A stretch of DNA of 64,000 bases, from NCBI RefSeq assembly GCF_001650025.1, contig NZ_LVVY01000064.1, positions 1 through 64,000 on the forward strand, in the 5' to 3' direction. The DNA comes from Devosia elaeis. GTDB lineage: Bacteria > Pseudomonadota > Alphaproteobacteria > Rhizobiales > Devosiaceae. Of the stretch, positions 13,396 through 64,000 are shown piece by piece. The position numbers and the translations under genes are program-made. Each line of letters begins with the position of its first letter. Within the stretch, counting starts at the first letter, position 1. The notes beneath the pieces were generated by a model. It saw only the letters and a program-made list of their open reading frames with translations, made no database searches and had not been told where the DNA came from.

Positions 13396-13490
13396 CGTCA
13401 CCTTCGGGCTCGACCCGGGGGCGTTTGCCACGCACCCAAAACCAAAGAACCCTCGGGTCAAGCCCGAGGGTGACGAGCGGTGGGTCGAAA
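13396..13490. repeat. palindromic element, CCCTCGGG/CCCGAGGG family
   Basis: Two modules, one at 13396-13420 and the hairpin CCCTCGGGTCAAGCCCGAGGG at 13451-13471, are joined by a spacer reading GGGGCGTTTGCCACGCACCC and so on. A copy with the same spacer in the opposite orientation lies at 46341-46420, and simpler copies lie at 31069-31200 and 50148-50187. It ends 3 bp from the ftsA stop codon. Confidence 0.8.
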
Positions 13491-16590: not shown

Positions 16591-16627
16591 GGATTGGTCC
16601 TGTCGAGAGTTTCGAGCACGAGGAACA

Positions 16628-16768
16628 CCCCCTCACCCGTCTCGGCCTGCGGCCGATCCACCCTCTCCCCGAGGGGGAGAGGAATAAGAGGCATCGTACG
16701 AAAACGGATGCCGGAGCAATTCTTCTCCCCCTCGGGGAGAAGGTGGCGCGTAGCGCCGGATGAGGGGG
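16628..16768. repeat. palindromic element, CTCCCC/GGGGAG family (at the usual murB position)
   Basis: Two hairpins (CTCTCCCCGAGGGGGAGAG at 16664-16682 and TTCTCCCCCTCGGGGAGAA at 16723-16741) are flanked by outward arms CACCCGTCTCGGCCTGCGGC and GGTGGCGCGTAGCGCCGGAT. The left half is nearly identical to the element inside the hybrid kinase gene (62343-62395, inverted). It fills the 196-bp gap between murC and ddl. No murB remnant is visible. Confidence 0.85.
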
Positions 16769-21737: not shown

Positions 21738-23135
21738 TCAGCTCTTTTCGAAGCGCGCGGTAATCGCATTCACAATGCGCGCCAGCCCGACACCGTTGGA
21801 CCCTTTGACCATAATAGCATCGCCATAAGCAAGATCGGCGACGATAACGTCTTCTCCATTCCCAACGGTTTCCGCATGGCTGGCGACCAGACCTCCGGGC
21901 AGCGCCGCGGCCAGGGCGGCCATGTGCTTTCCCACCAGATGCACCCGTTCGGCGCCGCTCATCCGCACCGCTTCGGCGAGGCCGGCATGGAGATTGTCGG
22001 CCTGCTCGCCCAGCTCCAGCATGTCGCCCAGGACCAGGATCTTCCGGCCGCCCGGGGCGTCGATGGCGGAGAAGACATCCAAGGCCGCGACCATAGAGGC
22101 GGTGTTGGCATTGTAGCTTTCATCGATAAGTAACAAGGGCTTAGCGGCCGGTCCGAGGGTCTTGCGCAGCCCCCTGCCCGGCTGGGCGCCGAAGCCGGCC
22201 AGGGCCCGGATGGCGACATCCGGCTCGATGCCGGCGATATGGGCGGTGGCCAAAGCCGCCGTGGCATTGGAGAGCATGTGGCGGCCGGAAACGCCCAGGG
22301 CAAGGGCGTATTGCCGGTCGCCATGCAGCACGGTGGCGAAGCTGCGATCGGCCGCGCTTTGCGGATTGACGATCTGCCAATCGGTGCCCCTTGCGAAGCC
22401 AAAAGTCAGCAGACTGTTCACCTTTGCCGCTGCACTTGCCGCGATAAGGTCACCAATCTGCGCATGATCGGCATTGACCAGGGCCGTACCGCCCGGTTCG
22501 AGCCCGTCGAAGATTTCCGCCTTCGCCCTGGCGATGTTTTCGAGACTGCCGAGACGCTCCAGATGCGCCGGCGCGATGGCGGTGATCACCGCCACATGCG
22601 GCCGCACCATCTGGCTCAGGGGCCGGATTTCGTCGAGGGCGTTCATGCCCATCTCGAAAATGCCGAACTGCGCCGTCTCGGGCATGCGCGCCAGCATCAG
22701 CGGCACGCCCCAATGATTGTTGAAACTCTTGATCGAGGCATGGGTCTCCCCGGCCGCCTCGAAGACCACGCGCAGCGCTTCCTTGGTGGTGGTCTTGCCG
22801 ACGCTGCCGGTGACGCCAACGATGAAGGCGCGGCTGCGCGCACGGGCGGCGCGGGCGAGGTCGCGCAACCCACCGAGGGCATCGGGAACCACGATCCGCC
22901 CCGGACCGCTGCCGCGCCCCTCGCTGACCAGGGCCGCCACGGCGCCATTGGCCAGAGCCGCATCGACGAAATCATGGCCGTCGAAGCGATCGCCCTTGAT
23001 GGCGACGAACAGGGCGTCGGGGCCGAGCTCGCGGGAATCGATGGAGATCGAATTGATCGCCTCGGCCTCGATGCCCTCGGTGCGTCCGCCCGTGGCCTTG
23101 AGGATGGCGTCGATGGTGAAGAGGGGTGGGGTCAT
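21738..23135 (-). CDS. murF: UDP-MurNAc-tripeptide-D-alanyl-D-alanine ligase MurF
   Basis: MurF adds D-Ala-D-Ala to complete the stem peptide. The start is the ATG at 23135 (MTPPLFTIDAIL), giving 465 residues. The frame stays open 56 codons further upstream, but that stretch is translated palindromic repeat, not MurF. The P-loop GVTGSVGKTTTKEAL is at residues 107-121, and the Mur-ligase motifs SFNNHWGVP, EMGMNALDEI and LIDESYNANTASM are present. A 180-bp gap holding a repeat separates it from murE. Confidence 0.96.
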   Translation of the reverse strand: MTPPLFTIDAILKATGGRTEGIEAEAINSISIDSRELGPDALFVAIKGDRFDGHDFVDAALANGAVAALVSEGRGSGPGRIVVPDALGGLRDLARAARARSRAFIVGVTGSVGKTTTKEALRVVFEAAGETHASIKSFNNHWGVPLMLARMPETAQFGIFEMGMNALDEIRPLSQMVRPHVAVITAIAPAHLERLGSLENIARAKAEIFDGLEPGGTALVNADHAQIGDLIAASAAAKVNSLLTFGFARGTDWQIVNPQSAADRSFATVLHGDRQYALALGVSGRHMLSNATAALATAHIAGIEPDVAIRALAGFGAQPGRGLRKTLGPAAKPLLLIDESYNANTASMVAALDVFSAIDAPGGRKILVLGDMLELGEQADNLHAGLAEAVRMSGAERVHLVGKHMAALAAALPGGLVASHAETVGNGEDVIVADLAYGDAIMVKGSNGVGLARIVNAITARFEKS

Positions 23136-23157
23136 GTCGTGATGCTGCCGCTTGCGC

Positions 23158-23285
23158 CACCTCTCCCTCTTGGGGGAGAGGTCGACCCTCTTGGGTCGGG
23201 TGAGGGGGACTTTACTGAATGCAGCGAGGGGGAAGGCCCCCTCACCCGGCGCTGCGCGCCGACCTCTCCCCCAAGGGGAGAGGTG
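23158..23285. repeat. palindromic element, CTCCCC/GGGGAG family (murE-murF gap)
   Basis: Hairpins at 23160-23181 (CTCTCCCTCTTGGGGGAGAG) and 23262-23285 (CTCTCCCCCAAGGGGAGAG) bracket a central region with the inverted pair GGTGAGGGGG and CCCCCTCACC. The layout matches the elements at 16628-16768 and 62326-62511. It leaves an open frame that runs into murF. Confidence 0.85.
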
Positions 23286-23315
23286 AAACGGGCCACCTGC
23301 CAAGCATTCAAAATC

Positions 23316-31040: not shown

Positions 31041-31068
31041 GGGGAGCTGACTGTTCCTCACTCGTTCG

Positions 31069-31200
31069 TCACCCTCGGGCTTGACCCGAGGGTTCTGGCC
31101 TTGCGCGGCTGAGGGACCGTGCTCCGGTCTTGCCAATCACGTCAGATGCAATCGCCAGGTAAGAGCCCTCGGGTCAAGCCCGAGGATGACGAACGGTGGG
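31069..31200. repeat. palindromic element, CCCTCGGG/CCCGAGGG family (two modules)
   Basis: CCCTCGGGCTTGACCCGAGGG at 31073-31093 and an inverted module CCCTCGGGTCAAGCCCGAGG at 31166-31185 bracket about 70 bp. It is the same family as 13396-13490, 46341-46420 and 50148-50187. The rest of the 299-bp gap between two convergent operons (31041-31339) holds only the terminator at 31290-31322. Confidence 0.8.
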
Positions 31201-60926: not shown

Positions 60927-61856
60927 TCAGAGCTCGAACGGAGCCTGGAACGACTGGATCGCCTTGATGGCGGCCGAGGCGCGGTTTTCCACGCCCAGCT
61001 TGGTATAGACCTGTTCGAGATGCTTGTTCACCGTGCGGGGGCTGAGGCCGAGGATGTCGCCGATATCGCGATTGGACTTGCCATGGGCGATCCAGAGCAG
61101 CACCTCGCTCTCGCGCTGGGTGAGGCCGAAGGCCTGGCGCAACATCTCCTCCTGCCCCTCGCCCTGGGCGGGGCCGAGGCGGAAGAGATATTCATCGCCG
61201 CCCACCATGCCGAGATAGGCAAATTGCAGGGCCTGGCCATTGCCGGCCGCCAGGTCGAACCCGGCGCCGGGCTGGGCCCGTTCGCCCGCAGCCAGGCGCC
61301 AGGCGGCAAAGCCATCGGCGAGTTGATCCTGGCGCTCGGCATCGAGCCCCCAGCGCGCCAGGAGGCGATTGGCCTGCGGCGTCGACCACAGCAAGGCGCC
61401 ATCGGCCGCTAAGGCCAGCAGATGACGACCAGCCGCATCGAGCGCGATGCGGGCGCTCTGCGCGCGGCGGGCATTGGCCAGATGCACCCGGATACGGGCG
61501 CGCAATTCATCGACATGGATCGGCTTGGAGAGATAATCCACCCCACCGCTTTCCAGCGCATGCACGATATGCTCGGTCTCGGTCAGCCCGGTCATGAAGA
61601 TGATCGGCACATGGGCAAGCGGAGCCATGGCCTTCATGCGGCGGCTCGTTTCGAAGCCGTCGAGCCCGGGCATGATTGCATCCATCAGCACCACATCGGG
61701 CGTGACGCGCTGCACGATATTGAGCGCCGCCTCGCCCGAGCGCGCCACCAGCAGGGTGACCCCGGCATCTTCCAGCGCCGTGGTGAGGAAGCCCAGCGAT
61801 TCCGGGGAATCGTCGACCAGGAGCACGATGTCCTGTTCCTTCTCAATCCGGCTCAT
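60927..61856 (-). CDS. response regulator, receiver plus LuxR-type DNA-binding domain
   Basis: A 309-residue two-domain regulator: an N-terminal receiver (Asp59 in VVLMDAIMPGLDGF, Lys in DYLSKPIHVDEL), a central PAS-like segment (about 125-230), and a C-terminal LuxR/GerE helix-turn-helix (LTQRESEVLLWIAHGKSNRDIGDILGLSPRTVNKHLEQVY). Its start overlaps the end of the hybrid kinase gene by 14 nt on the same strand, so it is the likely partner of that kinase. Confidence 0.93.
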   Translation of the reverse strand: MSRIEKEQDIVLLVDDSPESLGFLTTALEDAGVTLLVARSGEAALNIVQRVTPDVVLMDAIMPGLDGFETSRRMKAMAPLAHVPIIFMTGLTETEHIVHALESGGVDYLSKPIHVDELRARIRVHLANARRAQSARIALDAAGRHLLALAADGALLWSTPQANRLLARWGLDAERQDQLADGFAAWRLAAGERAQPGAGFDLAAGNGQALQFAYLGMVGGDEYLFRLGPAQGEGQEEMLRQAFGLTQRESEVLLWIAHGKSNRDIGDILGLSPRTVNKHLEQVYTKLGVENRASAAIKAIQSFQAPFEL

Positions 61857-64000
61857 GGCTCATCCGTTCCAGCGTTTCGGCATAGGCCTCGAAATCGAAA
61901 TTCTCCATGTGCCGGCGCAAGAGCGCGACCAGCGGCATATTGTCGGGCTCGGCGGCCAGCTCGGCAAGCCGGGCCTCTATGCCCCGGACATGGCCGATCT
62001 GGCCCAGATTGGCGAGATCGCGCAAGGCTTCGGCACCCGGAGACTTCAGCGCACCCGGAGCAGTCTCAGCCGGCGGTGCATCGTCATAAGTCCATTCGAG
62101 CCCCAGATGCGTACTCAGCTTGTCAAGGAGCTGGTTGATGTCGAACGGCTTGGCCAGCGTGTCCGAATGGCCGGCATCCGCACTGGTGGGATTGGCGCCG
62201 TCGCCTATATTGGCGGACAGCATGATGATGGGCGCGCCGATCCCGCGCTCGCGAAGCGACCGAACCAGTTCCCAGCCGCTCATGCCGGGCATGCGGATAT
62301 CGATGAAGTAGAGGTCGGCTGCTGAGTGTGACGTTCTTTCCATCTCCCCTTGAGGGAGAGGGTGAATCGGCCGGAGGCCGAGACGGGTGAGAGGTTCCGG
62401 CGTCGCCTCGTATTCAACGTTCGCGGAAACGCCCGAACCCCGCATCCGCCCTTCGGGCGCCTTCTCCCTCAAGGGGGGAAGGCCACCCGGCGAGATTTCG
62501 CTATCCGGGAAACCCAATGCCGCAAGACACCCCATCCCGCTCTCCGCCGTCACCACCTCAAATCCCAGCGGCTCCAGCATCTCCCGCATCATCCTGCGGT
62601 GATCCTCATTGTCATCGACCACCATGATGGACAGCCGCGGCCCCATATAGCTGGTGACCGACCTTGCCACAGACGAACGCCGCGTTGGTCGCTCCACCTT
62701 GGCCAGCATCAGCCGCGCCTGAAAGCGTGTGCCCTCGCCCGGTGTGCTGGACACGGTGATTTCTCCGCCCAGGGTTTCGGTCAGCAGCTTGGTGATGGTG
62801 AGGCCCAACCCAAGCCCGGGCGTAAACCGGTTCCTCTCCGCCTCCCCGCGCACGAAGGGCTCGAAGATATGCGGCAAGTCCTCCGCGCCGATGCCGCTGC
62901 CACTGTCGGAAACGATGAAGGTCGCCACCTGCATGCGGTAGCCGACCTCGAAGCTGACATGGCCGGAGGGGGTGAACTTGATGGCATTGGAGAGCAGATT
63001 GACCAGGATCTGGCGCAGCCGCTTTTCATCGGTGCGCACATAGGCCGGCAGCGCCGCCGCCCGCACGTGGCGGAATTCCAGCCCCTTGGCCGCCGCCTGC
63101 AGGCGGAACATGTCGACGATCTGGTCGAGGAAGTCCTGGATATTGACCTCGCCGGAATAGACCTGCAGGCGCCCCGCCTCGATCTTGGAAATGTCGAGCA
63201 GGCCATCGATGAGCCCGGAAAGGTGCTCGGCACTGCGCCGGATGACCTGCACCGAGCCCTTGCGGTTTTCCGGCAGGGCAGCGTCGCGTTCGAGGATTTG
63301 CGCATAGCCCATCACCGCGTTGAGCGGCGTGCGCAATTCATGGCTGAGCCCCACCACGTAACGCGACTTGGCGTGGTTGGCGGCCTCCGCCTTTTCCTTG
63401 GCGCGCTGCAAGGCGGCGTCGGTCTTCCTATGCGCCTCGATTTCCTTGAGCAGCAGCGTGTTCTGCCGCGTGCTCTCCTCTTCGGCCACGAGCCGGCTGT
63501 CATGGGCCAATACCAGGAACCAGGTCATCACCCCGGCGGCGACGGCGAAGACGAAGAACACGACCAGCAGCGTGCCGCCCACCACATCGGCCGTATGCGG
63601 CGCCGAGCCGATTGCGAAGTAATAGATGAGCCCCAGAATGCCGCCGAGAATGGCACTGGCGATGGCCATGGACATGCCGTAGCGGCCCAGCCGGGTCTGC
63701 AATTTATCGATTGCCCATTGCGGCAGCACGCTGGCCGCCACCGCATGGGTCTGCGCCCGGAAATGCGCATGCGGCTTGCACATGTCGTGGCAGCGGGCAT
63801 CCAGCGAACAGCAGAGCGAACAGATCGGCGCCGCATAGGCCGGACACCAGGCCATGTCCTCGGGCTCGAACGGATGTTCGCAGATCGAGCAGGTGAGCGA
63901 GGGCTTGGACGCCCAGGCCTTGCGCGGCTTGCGAGCGAGATAATATTTGCCCCCGGTCGCCCAGGCGATGGCGGGCGAAGCGATGAAGCAGACGACGAGC
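61843..64000 (-). CDS. membrane hybrid histidine kinase with Cys-rich module and receiver carrying a repeat-derived insert (5' end beyond the window)
   Basis: The frame is open to the window edge, so the N-terminus is missing. From the edge: end of a membrane segment (CFIASPAIAWATGGKYYLAR), then a Cys-rich module (TCSICEHPFEPEDMAWCPAY, ICSLCCSLDARCHDMCKP; ten Cys in about 40 residues), two membrane helices, a HisKA domain (His in VGLSHELRTPLNAVMGY), an HATPase domain (LSNAIKFTPSG; DSGSGIG; GLGLGLTI), a receiver (acidic pair VVDDNED, Asp in LYFIDIRMPGMSG), and a C-terminal helical tail. The Cys-rich module before the kinase recalls symporter-kinase proteins of alphaproteobacteria. Between receiver strands 2 and 3 lies about 62 residues translated from a palindromic repeat. 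Its partner is the LuxR-type regulator that follows. Confidence 0.9.
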   Translation of the reverse strand, partial: LVVCFIASPAIAWATGGKYYLARKPRKAWASKPSLTCSICEHPFEPEDMAWCPAYAAPICSLCCSLDARCHDMCKPHAHFRAQTHAVAASVLPQWAIDKLQTRLGRYGMSMAIASAILGGILGLIYYFAIGSAPHTADVVGGTLLVVFFVFAVAAGVMTWFLVLAHDSRLVAEEESTRQNTLLLKEIEAHRKTDAALQRAKEKAEAANHAKSRYVVGLSHELRTPLNAVMGYAQILERDAALPENRKGSVQVIRRSAEHLSGLIDGLLDISKIEAGRLQVYSGEVNIQDFLDQIVDMFRLQAAAKGLEFRHVRAAALPAYVRTDEKRLRQILVNLLSNAIKFTPSGHVSFEVGYRMQVATFIVSDSGSGIGAEDLPHIFEPFVRGEAERNRFTPGLGLGLTITKLLTETLGGEITVSSTPGEGTRFQARLMLAKVERPTRRSSVARSVTSYMGPRLSIMVVDDNEDHRRMMREMLEPLGFEVVTAESGMGCLAALGFPDSEISPGGLPPLREKAPEGRMRGSGVSANVEYEATPEPLTRLGLRPIHPLPQGEMERTSHSAADLYFIDIRMPGMSGWELVRSLRERGIGAPIIMLSANIGDGANPTSADAGHSDTLAKPFDINQLLDKLSTHLGLEWTYDDAPPAETAPGALKSPGAEALRDLANLGQIGHVRGIEARLAELAAEPDNMPLVALLRRHMENFDFEAYAETLERMSHEPD
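62326..62511. repeat. palindromic element inside the hybrid kinase receiver (in-frame insertion)
   Basis: The stretch has the same two-hairpin plan as the intergenic elements at 16628-16768 and 23158-23285: CATCTCCCCTTGAGGGAGAG at 62341-62360 and CTTCTCCCTCAAGGGGGGAAG at 62461-62481. The piece 62343-62395 matches the inverted 16628-16682 closely, including GGCCGAGACGGGTGAG. It keeps the reading frame (about 186 bp, 62 codons) without stop codons. Confidence 0.85.

Follow-up and report, generated by a model that had tools for sequence, protein, structure and literature searches.

A dispersed palindromic element reads in frame within the receiver domain of a Devosia hybrid histidine kinase

In Devosia elaeis, a copy of a dispersed palindromic element, E1, is part of the coding sequence of a hybrid histidine kinase, where it lengthens the loop between helix α2 and strand β3 of the receiver domain. 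The coding copy belongs to the E1 family, its frame is intact and most orthologues have an empty loop. Related species have inserts of their own at this loop, and three of these derive from E2, an unrelated palindrome. The kinase gene lies at the end of the window, i.e., the whole stretch of 64,000 nucleotides that was analysed, which belongs to a genome of 3.88 Mb in 151 contigs (G000). It is highly probable that E1, as a non-autonomous palindrome, inserted in frame at this permissive loop and was tolerated there with a neutral or nearly neutral effect.

The host gene and the inserted element

The kinase frame spans 1208 stop-free codons on the contig. Pfam recognizes HisKA, HATPase_c and a partial receiver (model positions 36–110 only), and over approximately residues 1–500 of the portion encoded in the window the kinase is 76–87% identical to 19 orthologues from the same genus. 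The first-pass annotation had proposed that the receiver is interrupted by about 62 residues in the loop between helix 2 and strand 3, and both the interruption and its placement are borne out. The minus-strand frame reads ...AESGMGCLAALG-[62 aa]-AADLYFIDIRMPG..., and the solved receiver 3cg4 aligns to query residues 6–44 and 112–182, with 67 window residues against its 6 in between. Alignment of the orthologues, which defines the borders of the insert, gives a loop of 70 residues compared to 9 in most of them, so that approximately 61 residues are extra. The coordinates of the features are listed in Table 1.

Table 1. Location of the kinase, its receiver residues and the E1 copies in the window
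Feature	Position	Strand	Basis
Hybrid histidine kinase, C-terminal 718 codons; frame runs past the window	61843..63999	-	ORF and Pfam
Response regulator (receiver and LuxR-type GerE), downstream of and overlapping the kinase gene	60927..61856	-	ORF and Pfam
Receiver acidic pair DD (D11, D12), invariant	62611..62616	-	alignment
Asp (D116) in FIDIRMPG, directly past the insert, invariant; presumed phosphoacceptor, a role taken from general receiver biology	62299..62301	-	alignment
In-frame insert, 62 residues, receiver α2-β3 loop	62326..62511	-	orthologue alignment
Element E1 proper, two-module palindrome, approximately 145 nt	62339..62483	-	genomic copies, fold, shuffle scores
E1 module A, hairpin then ...GGGCGGATGCGGGG (in other copies mostly ...GGATGAGGGG)	62438..62483	-	
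E1 module B, inverted compared to module A	62339..62394	+	
Non-element inserted stretch preceding E1 (FPDSEISPG)	62484..62511	-	no match assigned
Non-element inserted stretch following E1	62326..62338	-	no match assigned
Intergenic E1 copy	16627..16768	.	sequence match

E1 accounts for approximately 145 of the 186 inserted nucleotides and approximately 48 of the 61 extra residues; approximately 13 inserted residues lie outside the element, most of them preceding it. The two inverted hairpins seen earlier in the insert DNA are the two modules of E1, in each of which a CTCCCC/GGGGAG hairpin is followed by a second, smaller one and by an end of the TGAGGGG type. As a whole, the insert DNA folds end to end (−83.7 kcal/mol, z −5.2), with none of 200 shuffles being as stable (mean −62.6 ± 4.1). 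Terminal inverted repeats, a feature of MITEs, are present in all five full copies, where approximately 20 nucleotides pair at the ends; this pairing is interrupted in the coding copy and in L005. Such interruptions in the outer stem of the coding E1 are what an old copy would show.

The best other E1 copy in G000 matches the coding copy over 145 nt at 81% (E 9e-33), thereby extending past the hairpins and upholding the proposal that a dispersed palindromic element has turned coding in a Hyphomicrobiales receiver. Three further copies match at 75–77% over 138–145 nt, and the genome holds 60 matches to the insert at E≤10, the query counted, many of which are half elements. One half had been called nearly identical to an intergenic copy, placed in a putative murC-ddl gap; that half does match the copy in the window (16629–16684), but at 88% over 57 columns the wording is slightly strong. 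Against E1, the insert scores 151, with a maximum of 28 in 300 shuffles, and against E2 it scores 18, which is reached by 86 of 300 shuffles. A chance likeness between insert and E1 is ruled out by the E-value, the z-score of the fold and the shuffle scores. Searching the 64-kb window with Rfam at gathering thresholds returned RNase P alone and no known structured RNA at the insert. At L017 (G000 C1), another short palindrome, CTCCCCCGTCAAGGGGGAG, occurs in a longer context that flanks the E1 copy on both sides.

The frame of the kinase, set from the start of E1, is also open in three of the four other full copies and contains one stop in the fourth, and indels alter the encoded peptide in some of these copies. 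The open frame of E1 is by itself weak evidence, because all 108 E1/E2 clusters examined in the window's genome have at least one open frame. The DNA of the coding copy is related to that of dispersed copies that do not code, and its segment is absent from orthologues with the frame kept; orthologues free of the repeat lack the inserted residues as well. That the kinase gene would be a pseudogene or an assembly error is hardly conceivable: nothing apart from the insert itself points to it, the 1208-codon frame, the identity to the 19 orthologues and the retained catalytic residues speak against it, and a repeat collapse is unlikely because no other copy exceeds 81% identity to the coding E1 over the length of the latter.

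Inserts at the same loop in related species

Of 75 Devosia genomes, 43 have a match to the kinase and 40 an orthologue, the best match in the other three being only 41–42% identical. Loop lengths were taken from 38 of these 40, corresponding to 39 loci (L174 duplicates L084 of G062; G095 and G006 were left out). The loop comprises 8–11 residues in 32 genomes, 16 in one and 32–93 in five. Among the best 80 named loci, from several Hyphomicrobiales genera, it has 8–10 residues in 77, and the other three belong to these five long-loop Devosia genomes. The 16-residue loop (L068 of G068) is a small extension that does not score above shuffles with E1 or E2.

The five carriers of a long loop are the window's genome, G001, D. 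soli (G014), D. equisanguinis (G064) and the MAG G078, the shortest of these loops having 32 residues. The inserts of D. equisanguinis and the MAG encode VTLGLDPRALxLPxxPQVQxPRVKPEGD, which is translated E2. Against E2 they score 129 and 139, respectively, and the D. soli insert, a degenerate E2, scores 56, compared to maxima of 26, 27 and 34 in 300 shuffles each; against E1, all three are at shuffle level (300 shuffles each). The G001 insert has a short E1-type hairpin, but its family is uncertain because its score barely exceeds that of shuffles (32 compared to a maximum of 30). Past the degenerate E2, the D. soli insert (L092/L043) has a low-complexity end rich in Gly, Asp and Arg, possibly a simple-repeat expansion.

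The outer ends of E2 carry CGTC, its stem of 8 nt (CCCTCGGG/CCCGAGGG) encloses a loop of 5 nt, and its units form inverted pairs. These are the properties of CGTC REPs, which carry a CGTC end, a stem of 8–9 bp and a loop of 4–5 nt, and of which the units are often paired in opposite orientation. CGTC REPs also have a short tail, mostly CCA, that follows the stem; in many of the listed E2 copies, CCA lies outside the CGTC end and not clearly behind the stem. Both strands counted, E2 has 90 matches in G000, 82 in D. equisanguinis, 61 in G001, 30 in the MAG and 8 in D. soli, and its DNA found no match in the plasmid collection. The window itself holds E2 copies of the CGTC-type paired REP kind at 13396–13483 and 31063–31199, and a further CGTC-like repeat, GCCATCCTTGGGCTTGACCCGAGGA, occurs at approximately 33955 and once on the minus strand.

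The relationship between the carriers was derived from a second tree, from which the insert columns were removed and G062 was dropped (a misaligned row with an end branch of 10). In this tree, D. soli is nested in a supported clade (100/96) in which the other species all have the empty loop, and G000 and D. equisanguinis group without real support (69/8). AU tests, for groups chosen after seeing a first tree and with a program warning of long outgroup branches, reject four groupings as single clades: all five carriers (p 7.6e-6), the E2 carriers as a trio (2.8e-4), D. soli plus D. equisanguinis (5.5e-4) and G000 plus G001 (0.0096). A clade of D. equisanguinis and the MAG is not rejected (p 0.23), and the four carriers minus D. 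soli are borderline (0.047). Parsimony gives four changes in loop state (five in an earlier tree containing one bad row), a count that alone does not separate gains from losses. As the all-carrier clade is rejected and two element families are involved, at least three insertions are likely, i.e., E1 in G000, E2 in D. soli and E2 in one or two other lineages. Among the examined genomes, no closely related sister strain with an empty site was found from which to date the event or to read its exact ends or a target duplication.

A different history has been weighed in which a single ancient insertion explains all carriers and was later eroded, lost or overwritten by lineage, with elements nested in an older repeat. 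The beginning CLAALG-x-x-D that the G000 and G001 inserts have in common would fit such a history, as would the carrier groupings that the AU tests leave unrejected, and REPs are, according to the title of PMC1525189, targets of insertion sequences. It is nevertheless very doubtful, given the rejection of the all-carrier clade, the position of D. soli among empty-loop species and the many precise losses it needs, each restoring approximately 9 residues. Secondly, the DNA of the site might be a preferred target of the mobilizing enzyme, recurrence then reflecting target choice more than tolerance. The probable three or more insertions of two families at one loop of one gene are what this would predict, yet E1 and E2 inserts resemble each other no more than shuffles do the inserts of the carriers start at differing codons, without a single identical one, and an unsystematic inspection showed neither a target motif nor a duplication, which leaves target choice rather improbable.

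Receiver function and the survey for other coding copies

It had been suggested that the insert might change phosphotransfer. No variation occurs at the acidic pair, the presumed phosphoacceptor Asp, the Ser or the Lys, either in 31 rows or in 32 rows including the E2 carriers. Alignment A1, which was the folding input, excludes the three E2 carriers along with some rows that were nearly identical; L090 is absent from A1 and A2. With the window's receiver and 30 natural relatives, AlphaFold2 yields a mean pLDDT of 74.3, with 88 of 194 residues at 90 or higher. Insert residues 65–104, between a helix at 37–43 and a strand at 112–116, stay below 50, so the model leaves the insert disordered; beyond the insert, residues 151–160 are also weak (51). 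The 50 listed PDB matches are response regulators or receiver proteins, one coming from a flagellar C-ring entry and one being a designed protein. The ratio of receiver to kinase divergence averages 2.32 in the five carriers and 2.31 in 25 others (p 0.55), a comparison made without the deep-branching G098, G065, G070 and G022 and without G062. With invariant catalytic residues, a predicted disordered insert and no excess divergence, an alteration of phosphotransfer finds no support.

In receivers, the α2-β3 loop and the active site, where phosphorylation takes place, are at opposite ends of the fold. The loop used here would thus be on the side away from the active site, and the insert would read through as a flexible tether rich in Pro, Arg and Gly. 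Such a tether at such a position may be the reason why the insert was retained and may render it neutral or nearly so, the site being a permissive landing place that selection would have left uncleared. The insertions at the kinase loop apparently occurred without harm, and we read a tolerated flexible insertion as the economical interpretation, over a phosphotransfer switch.

Coding copies elsewhere were sought in G000 among 108 E1/E2 clusters, which cover 77 BLAST-hit loci and the window and are not a whole-genome count. In five of them, a frame that runs across the cluster survived a crude codon filter, and one of the five is this kinase. Pfam assigns no family to the other four (L247, L220, L223 and a frame in the window that lies antisense to a Mur ligase gene), nor to L213, which came through the first filter setting only. 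The filter is weak, as antisense frames score too and the first threshold missed the known positive; with this filter and Pfam, the kinase insert is the only one of the 108 clusters found inside a recognized domain. The E1-like copy at 23237–23283 of the window lies at the edge of the Mur ligase frame (21738–23303, minus), and the plus-strand frame over it, of 1239 codons, is the antisense frame without a Pfam family.

Across the 75 Devosia genomes, the E2 peptide has matches in at least 41. Among its listed rows without a stop and with a frame of at least 200, two are this kinase (MAG and D. equisanguinis) and ten are others. Nine of these ten were scanned with Pfam and none has the element within a matched domain; the tenth (L258), with a frame of 36 residues on recomputation compared to 276 printed, was outside the scan. 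The sole family among the nine is a partial APH at 209–269 with the element at approximately 60, which we read as probably upstream of the true start. The E1 peptide has matches in at least 52 genomes, the kinase being found in G000. Besides the kinase, eleven listed rows without a stop and with a frame of at least 368 were taken, of which ten were scanned (L273 was left out). Two of the ten have Pfam families: dnaN, with a partial third-domain match that the element lies past, and an ABC permease, which the element precedes. Thus, among the listed rows and clusters scanned, no other E1 or E2 copy was found inside a recognized Devosia domain, and those examined show no general tendency towards coding insertions in the genus. 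This survey of long listed frames is an indication, not a census, that the kinase loop may be exceptional in Devosia.

Outside Devosia, there is one parallel on a Shinella zoogloeoides plasmid (NZ_CP132313.1, L204:1715-3034), where an E1-type hairpin is read as protein (PLPSPQGGEGARRADEG...GHLLPIGEKG) within the linker between domains of a dihydrolipoamide acyltransferase. E1-type sequence is likewise translated in this linker at L205 and L276, on three Shinella plasmids in all, and the aligned orthologues from one Rhizobium and one Sinorhizobium are without it.

Possibly the tether has been co-opted, altering the partner choice of the receiver, the access of a phosphatase or the distance between kinase and receiver, and is kept by selection. 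The repeated use of one loop in one genus by two families could point in this direction, as could the lack of another internal coding copy among the rows and clusters scanned and the richness in Pro, Gly and charged residues that all inserts share despite differing in sequence and length. That same variation, with one loop of just 32 residues, argues against co-option, together with the disorder in the AlphaFold2 model, the absence of excess receiver divergence and the short loop in most congeners examined, and we consider it quite unlikely. A bolder claim, likewise unlikely, is that the Devosia receiver loop is a true hotspot at which selfish palindromes of unrelated origin become coding sequence again and again owing to the usefulness of the tether. 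If it were true, the loop would be a natural, replicated experiment making new signalling-protein sequence out of junk repeats.

Relation to known coding palindromes

An in-frame coding palindrome is of a known kind, as cases from Rickettsia and other bacteria have been published. The RPEs of Rickettsia are palindromes of 105–146 bp that are found intergenically and in frame within genes, where they keep the frames open; the enzyme with an RPE insert that was tested, in gmk, is active, and in Rickettsia conorii nearly half of the RPEs lie in genes (PMC2229807, PMC10969869, as far as their consulted parts go). Compared by description, E1 resembles them in being both intergenic and in-frame coding. 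The organism differs, and so does the share: approximately half in genes in R. conorii according to those parts, compared to one of 108 G000 clusters in a recognized domain with a weak filter.

The earlier statement that such cases are rare outside Rickettsiales was overstated. In-frame REPs or MITEs are described in enterobacteria and Neisseria (PMC2229807, PMC10969869, in part), and intragenic REPs in Xanthomonas, Thauera, O. terrae, S. alaskensis and others (BMC Genomics 2013;14:522, PMC3733652). In the consulted part of the latter paper, the gene that contains a REP is sometimes the only one hit in a species, two Xanthomonas species have REPs at about the same site of recB, and neutrality is proposed for REP insertions in flexible linkers and loops (PMC3733652). 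E2 resembles the GTAG/CGTC-tagged REPs of that part in its ends, stem, loop and inverted pairs, whereas the sequence of E1 differs and in Devosia two unrelated families occupy one loop; the cases in it include no Devosia and no receivers (PMC3733652). The small, non-autonomous ERIC, NEMIS and other MITEs have likewise become joined in frame to genes, but in other hosts and other target genes, and E1 is likened to them by description (PMC2229807, in part).

Plasmids of the rhizobia Rhizobium and Sinorhizobium contain sites that match E1 module A. E1 may be RIME1-like. Like E1, RIMEs are dispersed intergenic repeats, and they occur in rhizobia (Osteras 1995 as cited in the consulted parts of PMC2573895, PMC2245857 and PMC2873474). 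Listings of open-licence papers showed no previous description of the kinase insert, nor one of a coding palindrome from Devosia or of a loop shared by two families. The use of one loop by two repeat families is the unusual part.

The Devosia kinase adds a Hyphomicrobiales receiver to the known protein-coding palindromes. It offers several probable events at one structural site and many empty-loop orthologues as controls, both of which isolated cases lack, and tolerance, target choice and co-option are therefore separable by experiment. Moreover, the α2-β3 loop is marked as a natural insertion site in receivers.
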